Source: Bryobacterales bacterium
GTDB lineage: Bacteria; Acidobacteriota; Terriglobia; Bryobacterales; Bryobacteraceae
Direction: 5' to 3'
DNA length: 64,000 nucleotides
NCBI GenBank assembly: GCA_003136575.1
Contig: PLEX01000100.1
Span: forward strand, 2,001-66,000
A program made the position numbers and the translations under genes. Of this stretch, positions 1,955-11,771 are shown in pieces (the stretch's first letter is position 1; every line of letters begins with the position of its first letter). Below the pieces are notes generated by a model. The model searched no databases, had not been told where the DNA came from, and saw only the letters and a list, made by a program, of their open reading frames with translations.

Positions 1955-3248
1955 TTCGCAACTCCGTATGAGATGAGCAGGTAAGGTGCGGATTTACTTC
2001 GATCCGGCATGGCACCTGAACGTATCCGTACACCGGACCGTCTCCCTTGGCCATTTGTATGGTAATCGCGTTGTCGATCGCATCGCAGACGATGGCGTCC
2101 GAACCAGGCCCTTCCGCAACCCACGGCGAGAAGGAAAACGCGCCGGGATACAACTCCGGGATCTCCAAATCGAAATCGGCCGTGATGGTTTCGCCGGCGC
2201 GCAGCGGCCCCGGCTCATGGCCTTCCCGCGCCGCGCTGGTGGATGCGAAATCCAGCCCGAGATGATTCCGCAACCGCACGCCGATATCGGGCCGCGCGAG
2301 GTCGCGGTTGGCGCGCAGGCTGATCCGCACCAATATCCTGCTGTTCGGAATCATCAGATGCAACGGGTCGCCGAACTCGTCCAGGACCGCGACGCCCAGT
2401 ATCGTTGCGCCGCCCTCGCCCGAGCGATGATCGATATTCGGAATCGTAAGAACCGGCTCGACGGCAGAAACTGCGGCCGGCTCGGACTTCCGCAGCGACA
2501 GAACGCCCGCGCCGGATTCCTCCGGAGCAAAGGACGCGAGGTACTGAGCGACCACAGTCGAACTCTCGCCGATCGCGCGCGCGTGGCCGTGATCGAGCCA
2601 GAGCGCGCGGTCGCCGATGGCGCGAACGTCGGAGGCGGAATGCGACACAAAGATAATGGTGACGCCGCGATCCCGCATTTCGTTGATTCTGCGCATGCAG
2701 CGCTGGCGGAACCAGGCGTCGCCGACCGCGAGCGCTTCATCGACGACCAGGATCTCCGGATCGACGTGGATCGCGACGGAAAAAGCAAGGCGTACCGCCA
2801 TGCCGCTCGAATAGGTGCGCACGGGCTGATCGATGAAATCGCCGATCTCCGCGAAAGCTTCGATCGAACCGTAACGCTGGTCGAGCTCTTTCTTCGAAAG
2901 GCCGAGAATCGCGCCGTTCATGTACACGTTTTCGCGGCCCGTGAACTCGGGGTTGAAACCGGAACCCAGTTCCAGCAGCGCGGAGACGCGTCCGTTGACC
3001 GTAACCTTGCCCGAAGTCGGCTCGAAGATGCCGGCGATCAGTTGAAGCGCGGTGCTCTTACCCGATCCGTTCTCGCCTATGATGCAGAAGACCTCGCCAC
3101 GGGCAACCGAGAAAGTGACGTCGGTGAGGGCGTGAAAATCGCGATGGCGGTGGGCGGCTCCGAAGGTGGCCAGTTCCATCAGGCGGCCAACCGGAGTTTC
3201 ATAGACCGCGTAACTCTTGGAAACGCGCTCGAATTCGACGGCATTCAC
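1947..3248 (-). CDS. ABC transporter ATP-binding protein, polysaccharide export (Wzt-like) with C-terminal domain
   Basis: Walker A GENGSGKS, TYSSGM signature, VVDEALAVGD; Wzt-like C-terminal beta domain. Confidence 0.92.
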   Translation of the reverse strand: MNAVEFERVSKSYAVYETPVGRLMELATFGAAHRHRDFHALTDVTFSVARGEVFCIIGENGSGKSTALQLIAGIFEPTSGKVTVNGRVSALLELGSGFNPEFTGRENVYMNGAILGLSKKELDQRYGSIEAFAEIGDFIDQPVRTYSSGMAVRLAFSVAIHVDPEILVVDEALAVGDAWFRQRCMRRINEMRDRGVTIIFVSHSASDVRAIGDRALWLDHGHARAIGESSTVVAQYLASFAPEESGAGVLSLRKSEPAAVSAVEPVLTIPNIDHRSGEGGATILGVAVLDEFGDPLHLMIPNSRILVRISLRANRDLARPDIGVRLRNHLGLDFASTSAAREGHEPGPLRAGETITADFDLEIPELYPGAFSFSPWVAEGPGSDAIVCDAIDNAITIQMAKGDGPVYGYVQVPCRIEVNPHLTCSSHTELRIV

Positions 3249-3359
3249 GGGAAACTTCAGTTTAGTGCAGGCCGGACCACGTCGTCCGCTCCCGACGCAC
3301 CCGACGCACCCGATTAAGTCAAACCGCGTTTTTCAGGACCCTGCTAGACTGTAACTGAA

Positions 3360-4034
3360 ATGCAGTTTCGTTTTGCTTCAACCACTTTGATTGCCGCGCT
3401 CGCCTTGCTCGCGGGTCCGGCTGCCTTCGGACAAACCGCTCCGGCCCGCGTTGCCAAGGGCATTCCTCCCAGGGCGAATCCGAGGGAGTATCTGACGCAC
3501 GCCACGATAGGCAGCCTCACCATTGCGGCAGAGTTCGACCGCCACTCCGCGCCAACTCCCGAGTCGCTCCTTACGACGGAGGATTTTATCGTCGTCGAAG
3601 TGGGATTGTTCGGCGCCCCCGACGCACACCTCGCGATATCTTCGTCAGATTTTTCTCTTCGCGTCAACGGAAAAAAATCGGCGCTGCCCGTCGAGCAATT
3701 TACGGCCGTGTTCAAGAACCTGAGAGATCCGTCATATTCTCCACCGGAGATCGCGGCGGCCAAAGAGGCGAAGTCGGGTGGTAATGGCGTTAATACGGGT
3801 GGAAACAATCAAAGCGACCTCGGCAATACTCCGCCGGTTGTCCATATCCCGCCCGCAATGGAGCGCAAGATGGCCGAGCAGGTTCAGAACGCGGCCCTCC
3901 CGGAAGGCGACCGCGCGCTTCCGGTGGCCGGACTGATCTTCTTCCGTTATGGCGGCTCGGACAAGAGCATCCACTCCGTGGAACTGCTTTACTCGGGACC
4001 CGCCGGAAAAGCGACCATCGCGCTGCAGCCCTGA
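3360..4034 (+). CDS. Hypothetical exported protein
   Basis: Good signal peptide MQFRFASTTLIAALALLAGPAAFGQ; no family recognised. Confidence 0.7.
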   Translation: MQFRFASTTLIAALALLAGPAAFGQTAPARVAKGIPPRANPREYLTHATIGSLTIAAEFDRHSAPTPESLLTTEDFIVVEVGLFGAPDAHLAISSSDFSLRVNGKKSALPVEQFTAVFKNLRDPSYSPPEIAAAKEAKSGGNGVNTGGNNQSDLGNTPPVVHIPPAMERKMAEQVQNAALPEGDRALPVAGLIFFRYGGSDKSIHSVELLYSGPAGKATIALQP

Positions 4035-4102
4035 TCGACTCAGGCACCGCTATTTTTCCGAAGCGCCCCCGGATTTCCCCGCAGCGGAGGTATTATCGGC
4101 CC

Positions 4103-8076: not shown

Positions 8077-9018
8077 TCAGTTGACCGAAAGGCGGGCCGC
8101 AAGCGCCGCCGTAATCGGCTGGCCCGTCTGCTCCTCCACGTACAGGAACTGCCCGCCCGGGTTGATCTCCAGGAAAACGTAGCGCCCATCCCCGGTCAGC
8201 CGAAGGTCGATCGCGCCATAAACCAGGCCAAGCCGCCGCATCAACGTGCGAAGCTTTTCCGAAATATCGTCAGGCAAATCGCACGCAACGTGTTTGGCAT
8301 CGACGTTCATGCGAATGTCCACGTCATAGGAAAGCGTGCTCAAATCCACGGCGGCGGCGAACACGTCGTCGCCGACAATCGTCACCCTGAGCTCGCTGAC
8401 CGCGGCCACGTGCCCCTGAAAGATAACCGGCGCTAAACGGATCGATTCGTCGGTAAGCCTGGTTTCCGCCTCACCCAGCCTGCGGGTTTCGGACCATGCT
8501 CCCGGCAAGGCGATGAATTGCTTGTAGATCACATCCCCGTCGCACTCGCGCCAGAATGCCCGCGCTTCCTCGGGGTCGCTCGTCATCACTGTTTGTGGAA
8601 TCTCGATGCCGAGGCTCTGCGCGAGCGCCAGTTGGTACGGCTTGTGGCCGGCAACGGCGTCCAGCCCCGGCGGGTTGACCCAGTGCGTATCCATCGCCGC
8701 AAACAAACCCTGAAACGCCGTATTCGATTCCGAAAGAGCGAGTCGGCGGTGCGCGGGGTCTCGCAGCGTCTCGGGCAAGCCGAACTCGCCCGGGCGGCGC
8801 CACCATACCGTCCGCACCTCCTCCAGGTCAAGCTCACCTTCGCCCGGCCGCCGCAGCATGAACCGCCGATTGCCATCCCCGAACGCCAGCGTGAGCGCTA
8901 GCTTGCCGGGATACTCGGCAAGATCGAGCAACTCGACCCGCTCTCCGCGCGCGTCAAGCGCGGCGATGACGGCGCGGGCGTGCGGGTCGGCAAGACTGGA
9001 TACGATGAGGATCGCCAT
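8077..9018 (-). CDS. ATP-grasp peptide ligase, MvdC/MvdD-like (graspetide synthetase family)
   Basis: VRTVWWRRPGEF motif; VIYKQFI; GLVYGAIDLRLTGDGRYVFLEINPGGQFLYVEEQTGQPI ATP-grasp C-terminal signature. Confidence 0.82.
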   Translation of the reverse strand: MAILIVSSLADPHARAVIAALDARGERVELLDLAEYPGKLALTLAFGDGNRRFMLRRPGEGELDLEEVRTVWWRRPGEFGLPETLRDPAHRRLALSESNTAFQGLFAAMDTHWVNPPGLDAVAGHKPYQLALAQSLGIEIPQTVMTSDPEEARAFWRECDGDVIYKQFIALPGAWSETRRLGEAETRLTDESIRLAPVIFQGHVAAVSELRVTIVGDDVFAAAVDLSTLSYDVDIRMNVDAKHVACDLPDDISEKLRTLMRRLGLVYGAIDLRLTGDGRYVFLEINPGGQFLYVEEQTGQPITAALAARLSVN

Positions 9019-9033
9019 GGTCGGAGCGCCTGA

Positions 9034-9549
9034 CTAGATGGCGTTAGCTACTTCAACGGGGGCGTAAATGTGGTGGTCGCCTGTCCAGACGTAGGCCGTA
9101 AGGTAGGTACGATTTCCGCCGAAAGCAGCTAACTCCGCCCTGGCCTCGGGACCGACATGCTGGGGAGCTCCGGCGACGAACGGAGTGACGGTGGTGGTGA
9201 GTTCATAGACATCCTTGTGTGCGCGGGTGCCGATGCCTTCGATTGGTACGGCCGGGTTATAGAGCGACCCGCCGCTCGAAAGGATGTTGAGCGCATGCTC
9301 GGGAACCATCTTCCTTTCGAGGACCAGCTCCACCAGCGGCTGGCCGATTACGCCCGCAACTTTTCTGGCCGACTTCACGGCGGCGACTTCGAGCGCTTCC
9401 GAGCGCCCGTTGGGCAGAGTCAGCATGAACCGCGCAGGGTCGGCGGTTCGCGCCAGCACACCAAATACGGTCAGCGTATCGGCGTCCGGAGCCGCCGGCG
9501 CATCGCTGAGCAGCTTCTGAAATTCGTTTTCGTCTCTTGACATAAACAT
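9034..9549 (-). CDS. Unknown protein co-located with ATP-grasp ligase
   Basis: 171 aa, ATG at 9549 preceded by AAGGAG on the minus strand; 15 bp before the ligase gene. Confidence 0.75.
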   Translation of the reverse strand: MFMSRDENEFQKLLSDAPAAPDADTLTVFGVLARTADPARFMLTLPNGRSEALEVAAVKSARKVAGVIGQPLVELVLERKMVPEHALNILSSGGSLYNPAVPIEGIGTRAHKDVYELTTTVTPFVAGAPQHVGPEARAELAAFGGNRTYLTAYVWTGDHHIYAPVEVANAI

Positions 9550-9579
9550 GACTTACTCCTTATTACTGGTTGGAAATGG

Positions 9580-9783
9580 TTAGATCATGGGTTCATTCAC
9601 AAGCGCGCCGCGGCGCTTGGTCTGCAAGCCCGGAGAAATGTAACTACCTGGTTCGCCATCTATTACCCCAGTCCCGAGAATAGTCGCAAATTGATCGGCA
9701 CGTATTAGTGCGGGAGGATTCAAGACCGTTTCACGAATAAATGGGTCGCGCAGTCCACCGATCCGAAAGCAGCCTGCACACAC
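9580..9783 (-). CDS. Small ORF, possible RiPP precursor peptide
   Basis: MCAGCFRIGGLRDPFIRETVLNPPALIRADQFATILGTGVIDGEPGSYISPGLQTKRRGALVNEPMI; immediately upstream of and co-directional with the 171-aa gene and ligase. Start (GTG 9783) uncertain. Confidence 0.45.
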   Translation of the reverse strand: MCAGCFRIGGLRDPFIRETVLNPPALIRADQFATILGTGVIDGEPGSYISPGLQTKRRGALVNEPMI

Positions 9784-9827
9784 ACCCGCCTGCGCCTCAC
9801 TCCCGGGTGGAACGGGAATGGCATCAT

Positions 9828-11771
9828 ATGGCCATGCGCATCGGCATCGATTCCGGCGGCACGTTCACCGACTTCGCGATTCTCCGCGACGACGGCCGCC
9901 TCGAATCTTTTAAGTTGCGCTCGAACCCGGCGTCGCCCGCCGGCGTGATCCTCGAAGGTATTCGGCGGATCGACGCGGCGAAGAAAACCGAAGTCGTGCA
10001 CGGTTCCACGGTCGCCACCAACGCGCTCCTCGAGCGCAAGGGCGCCAAGACCGCCTTCGTCACCACCGCCGGTTTTGAAGACCTGATCGCGATCGGGCGG
10101 CAGAATCGGCCCGAACTTTACAACCTGACGCCCGAACCGGCAAGGCCAATTGTCCCGCGCCGCCTCTGCTTCGGCGTGGCTGAGCGGATGCTCTTCGATG
10201 GCTCGGTGGAAAAGCCACTGGGGGATGCGGAAATTGCGGCTCTGAAGAAACGCCTCGCGGCTTCGGGCGCAGAAGCGGTCGCCATCTGCCTCCTGCATTC
10301 CTGCCAAAACGACGCGCATGAGCGAATGCTTCTCGACGCGCTTCGCGATTCCGGCTACGTCTGCGCGTCCTGCGAGATTTCGCCTGAATTCCGCGAGTTT
10401 GAGCGCGCCAGCACCACCGTCATCAACGCCTACGTCGGTCCGCTGATGGACCGGTACCTGGGCGAACTGGAGCGCGGCTGCGCGCACAAGCTGTCCATCA
10501 TGCAGTCGAACGGCGGGCTTTTGACCGCTGCCGAAGCGCGGCGCCATGCGGTGCGCACCATTCTCTCCGGGCCGGCCGGCGGCGTGGCCGGCGCGGTGGA
10601 AGTGGGGCGCCTGGCTGGCTTCCGGCGCACTCTGACGTTCGATATGGGTGGCACTTCCACGGATGTCGCGCTGGCGGGGCGCAACGCGCACCTCAGTACC
10701 GAGACTCGCGTCGATGGCTTTCCCGTGCGCGTGCCGATGCTCGATATTCACACCGCGGGCGCCGGGGGCGGGTCGATCGCTTATGTGGATACCGGAGGCA
10801 GTCTGCGGGTGGGGCCTCGGAGCGCAGGCGCCTCGCCGGGGCCAGCCTGCTATGGCGTGGGAGAGCTTCCGACGGTGACGGACGCCCACGTGGTGCTGGG
10901 CCGGATCGCTCCCTATCAATTGGTGGGCGGCGAGGTGCATATCGATCCCGCCCGGTCGGAGCAGGCGCTGGAAAGGTTGGGCGAGCCGCTCGGACTGAAC
11001 CCGGTGGATGCGGCCGCCGCAGTGATCCGGATCGCAAATTCCAATATGGAACGGGCAATTCGGGCGGTATCGGTAGAACGGGGCGAAGATCCGCGCGATT
11101 ACCCGCTGGTCGCCTTCGGCGGTTGCGGCGGGTTGCACGCTTGCGAAATGGCGGAAGAACTCGGGATCGGGACGGTAATCGTGCCGCGCCTGGCCGGAGC
11201 GCTTTCCGCCCTGGGGATGCTGCTGGCCGACCGGAAACGCGATTACTCCGTTGGAGCGCTGGGTATCGGATTGAGCGCCTCCGCCGAGTTTGAAGCCCGC
11301 TTCCGGCGTCTGGAGAAGCTGGCCCGGCGGGACGTGCGCGGAGCTCGCCTCGAGCGATTCGCCGATATCCGCTATGCGGGCCAAAGCTATGAATTGACAG
11401 TCCCTTGGCACGCGGGAGACCCATCGGCGGCGTTCCACAAAGAACACCACCGAGTCTACGGCTATTCGGACCCGGAGCGCGCGACGCAGATAGTCACGCT
11501 GCGGGTCCAGGCCACCATCGCAACGGAGCGGCCGTCGCTGCGCGCCCGGTTTGCTCGGGCTGGTGGGGAAACGGCGAAGCGGCGGGTTTGGCGGCGTGTT
11601 TGGATGGACGGGCGCTGGCGGAAAGTGACGACTGGAGGGCGGGAAATGGTTGGCGGCGTGGCCGGACCCGGGCCGGCAGTCATTACGGACTACGGCTCGA
11701 CCGTGCTGGTGCCCCCCGGATGGAAGGCACGCCTCGATTCGGCTGGCAGCCTCATCCTCACAAATCGGTAA
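9828..11771 (+). CDS. Hydantoinase/oxoprolinase family protein (HyuA-like)
   Basis: MRIGIDSGGTFTDFAILRDDG, GSTVATNALLERKG, GPAGGVAGA, FDMGGTSTDVAL. Confidence 0.93.
   Translation: MAMRIGIDSGGTFTDFAILRDDGRLESFKLRSNPASPAGVILEGIRRIDAAKKTEVVHGSTVATNALLERKGAKTAFVTTAGFEDLIAIGRQNRPELYNLTPEPARPIVPRRLCFGVAERMLFDGSVEKPLGDAEIAALKKRLAASGAEAVAICLLHSCQNDAHERMLLDALRDSGYVCASCEISPEFREFERASTTVINAYVGPLMDRYLGELERGCAHKLSIMQSNGGLLTAAEARRHAVRTILSGPAGGVAGAVEVGRLAGFRRTLTFDMGGTSTDVALAGRNAHLSTETRVDGFPVRVPMLDIHTAGAGGGSIAYVDTGGSLRVGPRSAGASPGPACYGVGELPTVTDAHVVLGRIAPYQLVGGEVHIDPARSEQALERLGEPLGLNPVDAAAAVIRIANSNMERAIRAVSVERGEDPRDYPLVAFGGCGGLHACEMAEELGIGTVIVPRLAGALSALGMLLADRKRDYSVGALGIGLSASAEFEARFRRLEKLARRDVRGARLERFADIRYAGQSYELTVPWHAGDPSAAFHKEHHRVYGYSDPERATQIVTLRVQATIATERPSLRARFARAGGETAKRRVWRRVWMDGRWRKVTTGGREMVGGVAGPGPAVITDYGSTVLVPPGWKARLDSAGSLILTNR

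Follow-up and report, generated by a model that had tools for sequence, protein, structure and literature searches.

Introduction

Large graspetide precursors as such are already known. Corallotide (CorA/CorB, graspetide group 15) has a proven Lys-Asp lactam at K-x-x-x-D spacing and a synthetase, CorB, that matches TIGR04187 (PMC13097080). Graspetide precursors carry a 'Phhx(1,2)h' leader motif, and two ligase branches are accompanied by peptidases of unrelated families with no precursor (PMC8939145). In groups with neighbouring proteases, these have been interpreted as maturation or resistance enzymes (PMC13097080). In fuscimiditide (ThfA/ThfB), an engineered C-terminal leader still directs cross-linking (PMC13003496), and the order of core followed by recognition element is published so far only in engineered form. 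No description of proteases as graspetide substrates was found in the open-access literature, most subscription papers being outside the search.

A stretch of 64,000 nt (the window) from Bryobacterales bacterium contig PLEX01000100.1 (GCA_003136575.1, positions 2,001-66,000) encodes a graspetide-type ATP-grasp ligase beside a 171-aa protein. From sequence comparison, we consider it probable (about 0.7) that the 171-aa protein is the precursor or substrate of this ligase, in a two-gene graspetide-type system belonging to a clade whose substrates would mostly be proteases.

The locus resembles corallotide in its TIGR04187-matching synthetase and in a large putative precursor with a folded N-terminal domain, and the K-x-x-x-D ring sites of corallotide recall the K-x-x-D-D repeats of the clade relatives; however, the CorA N-domain is alpha-helical and its locus also encodes an oxygenase and a beta-lactamase, whereas the window has neither gene and no such repeat. 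With the microviridins (MdnB/MdnC, MvdC/MvdD) it shares an MvdD-type pre-ATP-grasp domain, the ATP-grasp fold and a PF-type leader motif, and the TLKFRDD of the relatives resembles TxKxPSD; microviridins, in contrast, have a short precursor, an N-terminal PFFARFL leader and two ligases, where the window has one ligase, a 171-aa protein and a separate tree branch. TgmA/TgmB (TIGR04186/TIGR04187, e.g. Streptomyces) are close in that TIGR04187 is the best NCBIfam model of the window ligase, but the score is under the curated cut-off, the precursor is unrelated and the tree branch is again a separate one. Ligase branches 7 and 8 of PMC8939145 are similar by their description: the ligase is flanked by peptidases from unrelated families, and the precursor is unrecognised. 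Fuscimiditide is alike in a recognition element C-terminal to the core, which is engineered there and, we infer, natural in the clade.

Gene content of the locus

The locus is real and comprises two genes rather than three. The original prediction had placed three close minus-strand ORFs at 8077-9783, in the order precursor, unknown, ligase; the ligase and 171-aa ORFs are present there, the former with the VWWRRP and FLEINPGGQFLYVEEQTGQPI motifs ascribed to it, and the third, a 67-aa ORF, is unsupported. The order has to be revised accordingly: the likely precursor is the 'unknown' 171-aa protein, and the short ORF is spurious.

8077 to 9018, minus strand: graspetide-type ATP-grasp ligase, 313 aa (TIGR04187, 257 bits; PF21068 over cut-off; 77% identity to L004; tree clade)
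9034 to 9549, minus strand: 171-aa protein, likely precursor or substrate of the ligase (adjoins the ligase in L004 too; N-half kept, C-half diverged)
9556 to 9561, minus strand: Shine-Dalgarno sequence AAGGAG of the 171-aa gene, 6 nt upstream of its start (from the sequence)
9580 to 9783, minus strand: 67-aa ORF with a GTG start, on present evidence not a gene (no similarity in L004, no family, overlap with a divergent gene)

The two minus-strand genes are 15 nt apart. The pair is kept in L004 (PMQB01000289.1), a metagenome-assembled genome from the Bryobacterales, where the genes directly abut and where the 171-aa protein is 53% identical, compared with 77% for the ligase. Between the two genomes, dN and dS are 0.16 and 2.4 for the ligase, 0.28 and 1.7 for the N-half of the 171-aa protein, and 0.60 and 1.8 for its C-half, dS being about equal in the two halves. 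Because dS is far above dN in both genes, both are real and under purifying selection.

The 67-aa ORF was not kept in L004 when conservation of the neighbouring short ORFs was checked there, whereas the 171-aa ORF was; no similar sequence is found in L004, which has a ferredoxin-like ORF upstream instead. NCBIfam and Pfam profile searches with the 67-aa ORF gave no family match, and it overlaps the start of a divergent hydantoinase-type gene (9741-11771, plus strand). On these grounds it was ruled out as a precursor peptide. The identified neighbours (the hydantoinase-type gene, a DUF2961 gene and a GGDEF gene) do not suggest export, and a promoter and terminator scan gave nothing above chance.

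The ligase and its relatives

The assignment as a graspetide-type ligase was borne out by profile matches, PDB relatives and phylogeny. When graspetide ligase subfamilies were searched, TIGR04187 (GRASP_SAV_5884) was best (1.7e-76), followed by MvdD (2.5e-56) and MvdC (1.7e-51), with the RimK family at only 6e-10; in Pfam, the MvdD-type pre-ATP-grasp domain PF21068 was above its cut-off (1.5e-14) and RimK below its own. The TIGR04187 score of 257 bits does not reach the curated cut-off of 350 bits, and the protein is therefore a subfamily relative rather than a curated member, a point that weighs against the main reading. Its best PDB matches include microviridin-type ATP-grasp ligases and CdnC, and its FLEINPGGQF segment aligns with solved graspetide ligases. 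Invariant across an alignment of seven ligases are D271, E284, the N286 region, K126, K166 and R211, the putative Mg/ATP-site residues of an ATP-grasp enzyme.

By an HMM built from the ligases of the window and L004, the closest of the other ligases compared at that stage were L008, L012, L037, L016 and L040, with scores of 306 to 226 bits; the remainder scored below 200 bits. IQ-TREE placed the window, L004, L008, L012, L037 and L016 in one clade (support 97/95), apart from MvdC/MvdD (L085, L086), TgmB-type ligases (L056, L084, L088) and the short-leader systems of acidobacteria, as well as from E. coli RimK. The ligase does not group with RimK, itself a long branch, and a RimK-like amino-acid ligase with no relation to the cross-linking of peptides is a highly improbable identity for it: similarity to the RimK fold is common to all ATP-grasp ligases, and the family scores, PDB matches and tree contradict this assignment.

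L040, with DPK repeats and a C-terminal PFILTT, was considered as a clade member and set aside, its ligase falling outside the clade in the tree (weak support); with L040 outside, the label of a C-terminal motif needs two changes on the tree. The viral contigs searched contained one distant relative of the ligase.

The 171-aa protein

Searches of NCBIfam, Pfam, PHROGs and the PDB sequences gave no family for the 171-aa protein, which is single copy in its own genome. A sequence search of 150 relatives and 399 genomes of the class (a sample, not a census) returned, beyond itself, only matches judged chance or spurious (L003, L005-L007); the L004 protein is its one close homologue, which counts against reading it as a precursor. 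Identity to the L004 protein is 66% over residues 1-88 but only 42%, with indels, over residues 89-171.

9274 to 9549, minus strand: folded N-terminal domain, residues 1-92, predicted as a helix and a five-stranded small barrel (AlphaFold2 pLDDT 77.7, from two sequences only)
9037 to 9273, minus strand: disordered, diverged half, residues 93-171, expected to hold the modified core (pLDDT mostly below 35; divergence from L004)
9211 to 9228, minus strand: TRAHKD, residues 108-113, preceding the motif, a candidate acceptor/donor site (T, H, K and D kept in L004; putative role)
9154 to 9183, minus strand: PFVAGAPQHV, residues 123-132, candidate ligase recognition motif (matrix from the relatives' partners)
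9073 to 9108, minus strand: TYLTAYVWTGDH, residues 148-159, candidate core after the motif (T148, T151, W155 and D158 kept in L004; putative role)

Fold searches with the whole protein and with the N-domain gave nothing significant, IF-1/OB-like matches having E values of 0.13 or worse. Homology of the N-domain to that of a DPK-repeat protein from another locus (L057) was also tried and is unsupported (BLAST E 0.015, hhalign probability 1%).

Three blocks of the C-half are shared with L004, GTxxHKD (107-113), PFVAxAPxHV (123-132) and NRTYxT...W..D (146-158). TxKxPSD and PFFARFL are both absent from the 171-aa protein, so the earlier statement that no microviridin-type core is present stands for the window protein; it does not extend to the clade relatives, whose TLKFRDD repeats resemble one. 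K-x-x-D-D repeats are absent from the window protein, and candidate Thr/Ser/Lys and Asp/Glu residues flank the motif on both sides. The candidate sites of the two proteins misalign (KDVYE vs KAYAD), and this too weighs against a precursor.

The 171-aa protein is nevertheless the likely precursor because the pair is kept in L004, the N-half is conserved, the C-half has diverged and the tail is predicted to be disordered. In the one homologue available, the gene again adjoins the ligase, and the presumed recognition part is conserved and the presumed core part variable, a precursor-like pattern. The protein could instead be a chaperone-like partner of the ligase, with the true precursor encoded elsewhere; partner-dependent graspetides exist (rosaritide, PMC13097080) and the N-domain is predicted to be folded, but half of the protein is disordered, fast-evolving and bears a leader-like motif, and the locus has no other small conserved ORF, which leaves a partner role quite improbable.

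Protease partners of the clade ligases

The genes directly upstream of the clade ligases encode large proteins: a subtilase in L008/L059 (PF00082, 7.5e-27), M43 metalloproteases in L012/L060 (from the window's own genus) and in L037 (Burkholderia stagnalis plasmid), and an astacin in L016/L058 (PF01400, 2e-47). HExxH zinc motifs are visible in the M43 and astacin proteins and a GTSAATP serine region in the subtilase, so these partner proteases may be active. A profile of seven ligases (the six clade ligases and L040) was searched against 237 genomes of the window's family and found one further clade-level ligase, L116 (424 bits; absent from the tree), whose upstream gene likewise encodes an M43 protease, organised like the other clade partners. 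Since L116 was found by ligase score alone, it provides an independent check.

Downstream of the catalytic domain, most clade proteases have (T/S)LKFRDD-like repeats (e.g. TLKFRDD, SLKFRDD, TLKAADD), then PF[VI]LSTPHHSMAW (PFAVTTVHQ in the astacin), and then a tail of 70-85 residues; in these relatives the repeats are N-terminal to the PF motif. K..DD units number 7 in L116, 13 in L059 and 7 in L060, where 2000 shuffles reached no more than 2 to 4, and the spacing of the corallotide lactam, K-x-x-x-D, is present within K-x-x-D-D. L037 has a single K..DD unit and the repeats of L058 are of the DTRKE/KD type, both of which count against the proposed reading.

M43 homologues that end right after the catalytic domain (50-59% identity over that domain) served as controls: two from Rhizobium, one each from Priestia, Azospirillum and Nonomuraea, and two from the window's bacterial family (G052, G071). 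No ligase was found beside these tail-less proteins (0/7, flanks of about 1.5-2.5 kb examined), whereas the tailed M43 proteases have a clade-level ligase directly downstream in 3/3; the chance probability is 1/120 by our own arithmetic, with records that are partly non-independent.

The adjacent proteases might merely process or resist the product, their tails not being substrates, as has been proposed for protease-flanked graspetide loci (PMC13097080, PMC8939145). This we regard as unlikely, since one tail motif is common to three unrelated protease families and, among the M43 homologues, the tail is seen solely with an adjacent ligase. Given the shared tails and motif and the tail-less M43 proteins without a neighbouring ligase, the substrate in the clade is probably a whole protein with its recognition element C-terminal to the core.

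If the proteases are substrates, the missing precursors have been found and a natural C-terminal recognition element exists; lactam/lactone stapling would then offer a means of cross-linking or regulating entire enzymes, and graspetide loci with peptidases but an unrecognised precursor would be explained. Such systems could be overlooked by finders of short-peptide precursors. The findings suggest that the missing substrates of such ligases include whole proteins besides small peptides.

Small proteins of about 100-110 aa with a WI/NWVH start, alike by eye, lie beside M43 proteases both tailed and tail-less (upstream in L116, G892; 3460-3795 in L096, Azospirillum); they are possibly an inhibitor or partner.

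A recognition motif shared with the window

The likeness of the motifs was spotted by eye before a 10-column scoring matrix was built solely from the partners in L008, L012/L037, L016 and L040. The best matrix site in the L004 protein is APFVAAAPHH, equalled by 0/20000 shuffles, and that in the window protein is TPFVAGAPQH, aligned with the L004 site and equalled by 105/20000 shuffles. Taken alone, the window motif is thus reached by 0.5% of shuffles, which counts against it; among 42,417 positions in the ORFs of the window, just one other site equals its score. Both PFVAGA (window) and PFVAAA (L004) conform to the leader pattern Phhx(1,2)h of PMC8939145. Elsewhere in its own genome the motif, searched as a DNA pattern, is not enriched (7 matches vs 5 for a reversed control). 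The window pair and the protease systems thus have the ligase clade and the matrix-found motif in common.

In the proposed mechanism, the folded N-terminal domain would carry the disordered C-terminal half, the ligase would dock on PFVAxAPxHV and, with ATP, activate Asp/Glu side chains, and attack by Lys or Thr would form the cross-link. In the protease systems the core would precede the motif, with the recognition element C-terminal, and the product would probably be a cross-linked ('stapled') protein tail. Cross-linking may turn the tail into an inhibitor tethered to the protease, may stabilise it, or may yield a peptide that is released.

For the window protein, core positions before and after the motif are nearly equal in standing. 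An ordinary leader-then-core arrangement with a very long leader (residues 1-132) and the last ~40 residues (NRTYLTAYVWTGDHH...) as core is a tentative alternative. Graspetides characterised so far usually have this order, and the L004 protein retains T148, T151 and D158 and has KAYADP near its C-terminus, with K-x-x-x-D as in corallotide; however, the ring-like repeats of the clade relatives precede the motif. We hold evenly balanced the broader proposal that the substrates of this synthetase clade are whole proteins, for the most part proteases predicted to be active, in core-then-'leader' order, giving a stapled enzyme instead of a released peptide, the window protein being a small member in which a beta-barrel replaces the protease.

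Other graspetide-type loci

Several further loci were observed. L119 (G011), L120 (G361), L121 (G040) and L122 (G692) have an N-terminal ATP-grasp half before the full ligase, separate except in L121, where it is fused; branch 8 of PMC8939145 has the same split or extra half, with no precursors known. The upstream protein of this group (DUF6519 in L121, Kelch in L122) has a conserved FI[RKQ]P[EQ]ERP motif in its C-terminal part, preceded by a K/E/D-rich stretch; that of L119 has only a looser version, HFIPAHMRP. These upstream proteins are likely substrates of that extra-half ligase branch.

L057 (G638) encodes, at 2974-4101 on the minus strand, a 375-aa protein with about 40 DPK units and GPFILTTNWPY at its extreme C-terminus, and the gene ends 20 nt before a graspetide-type ligase; with the motif in that position, a core can only lie on its N-terminal side. 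In L087 (Phyllobacterium zundukense plasmid), an unannotated ORF of 165 aa (1982-2479) directly before an MvdC/MvdD-family ligase has VPFSML mid-protein and an S/T/D-rich C-terminus (SGGSYDDSGIDDW), and is a candidate precursor with a layout similar to that of the window protein. L010, L011, L117 and L118 are acidobacterial short-precursor graspetide loci with a PF[IL]LRF-like leader and a T(R)xT..TTDD core, often as a tandem precursor pair, in the ordinary leader-then-core layout.
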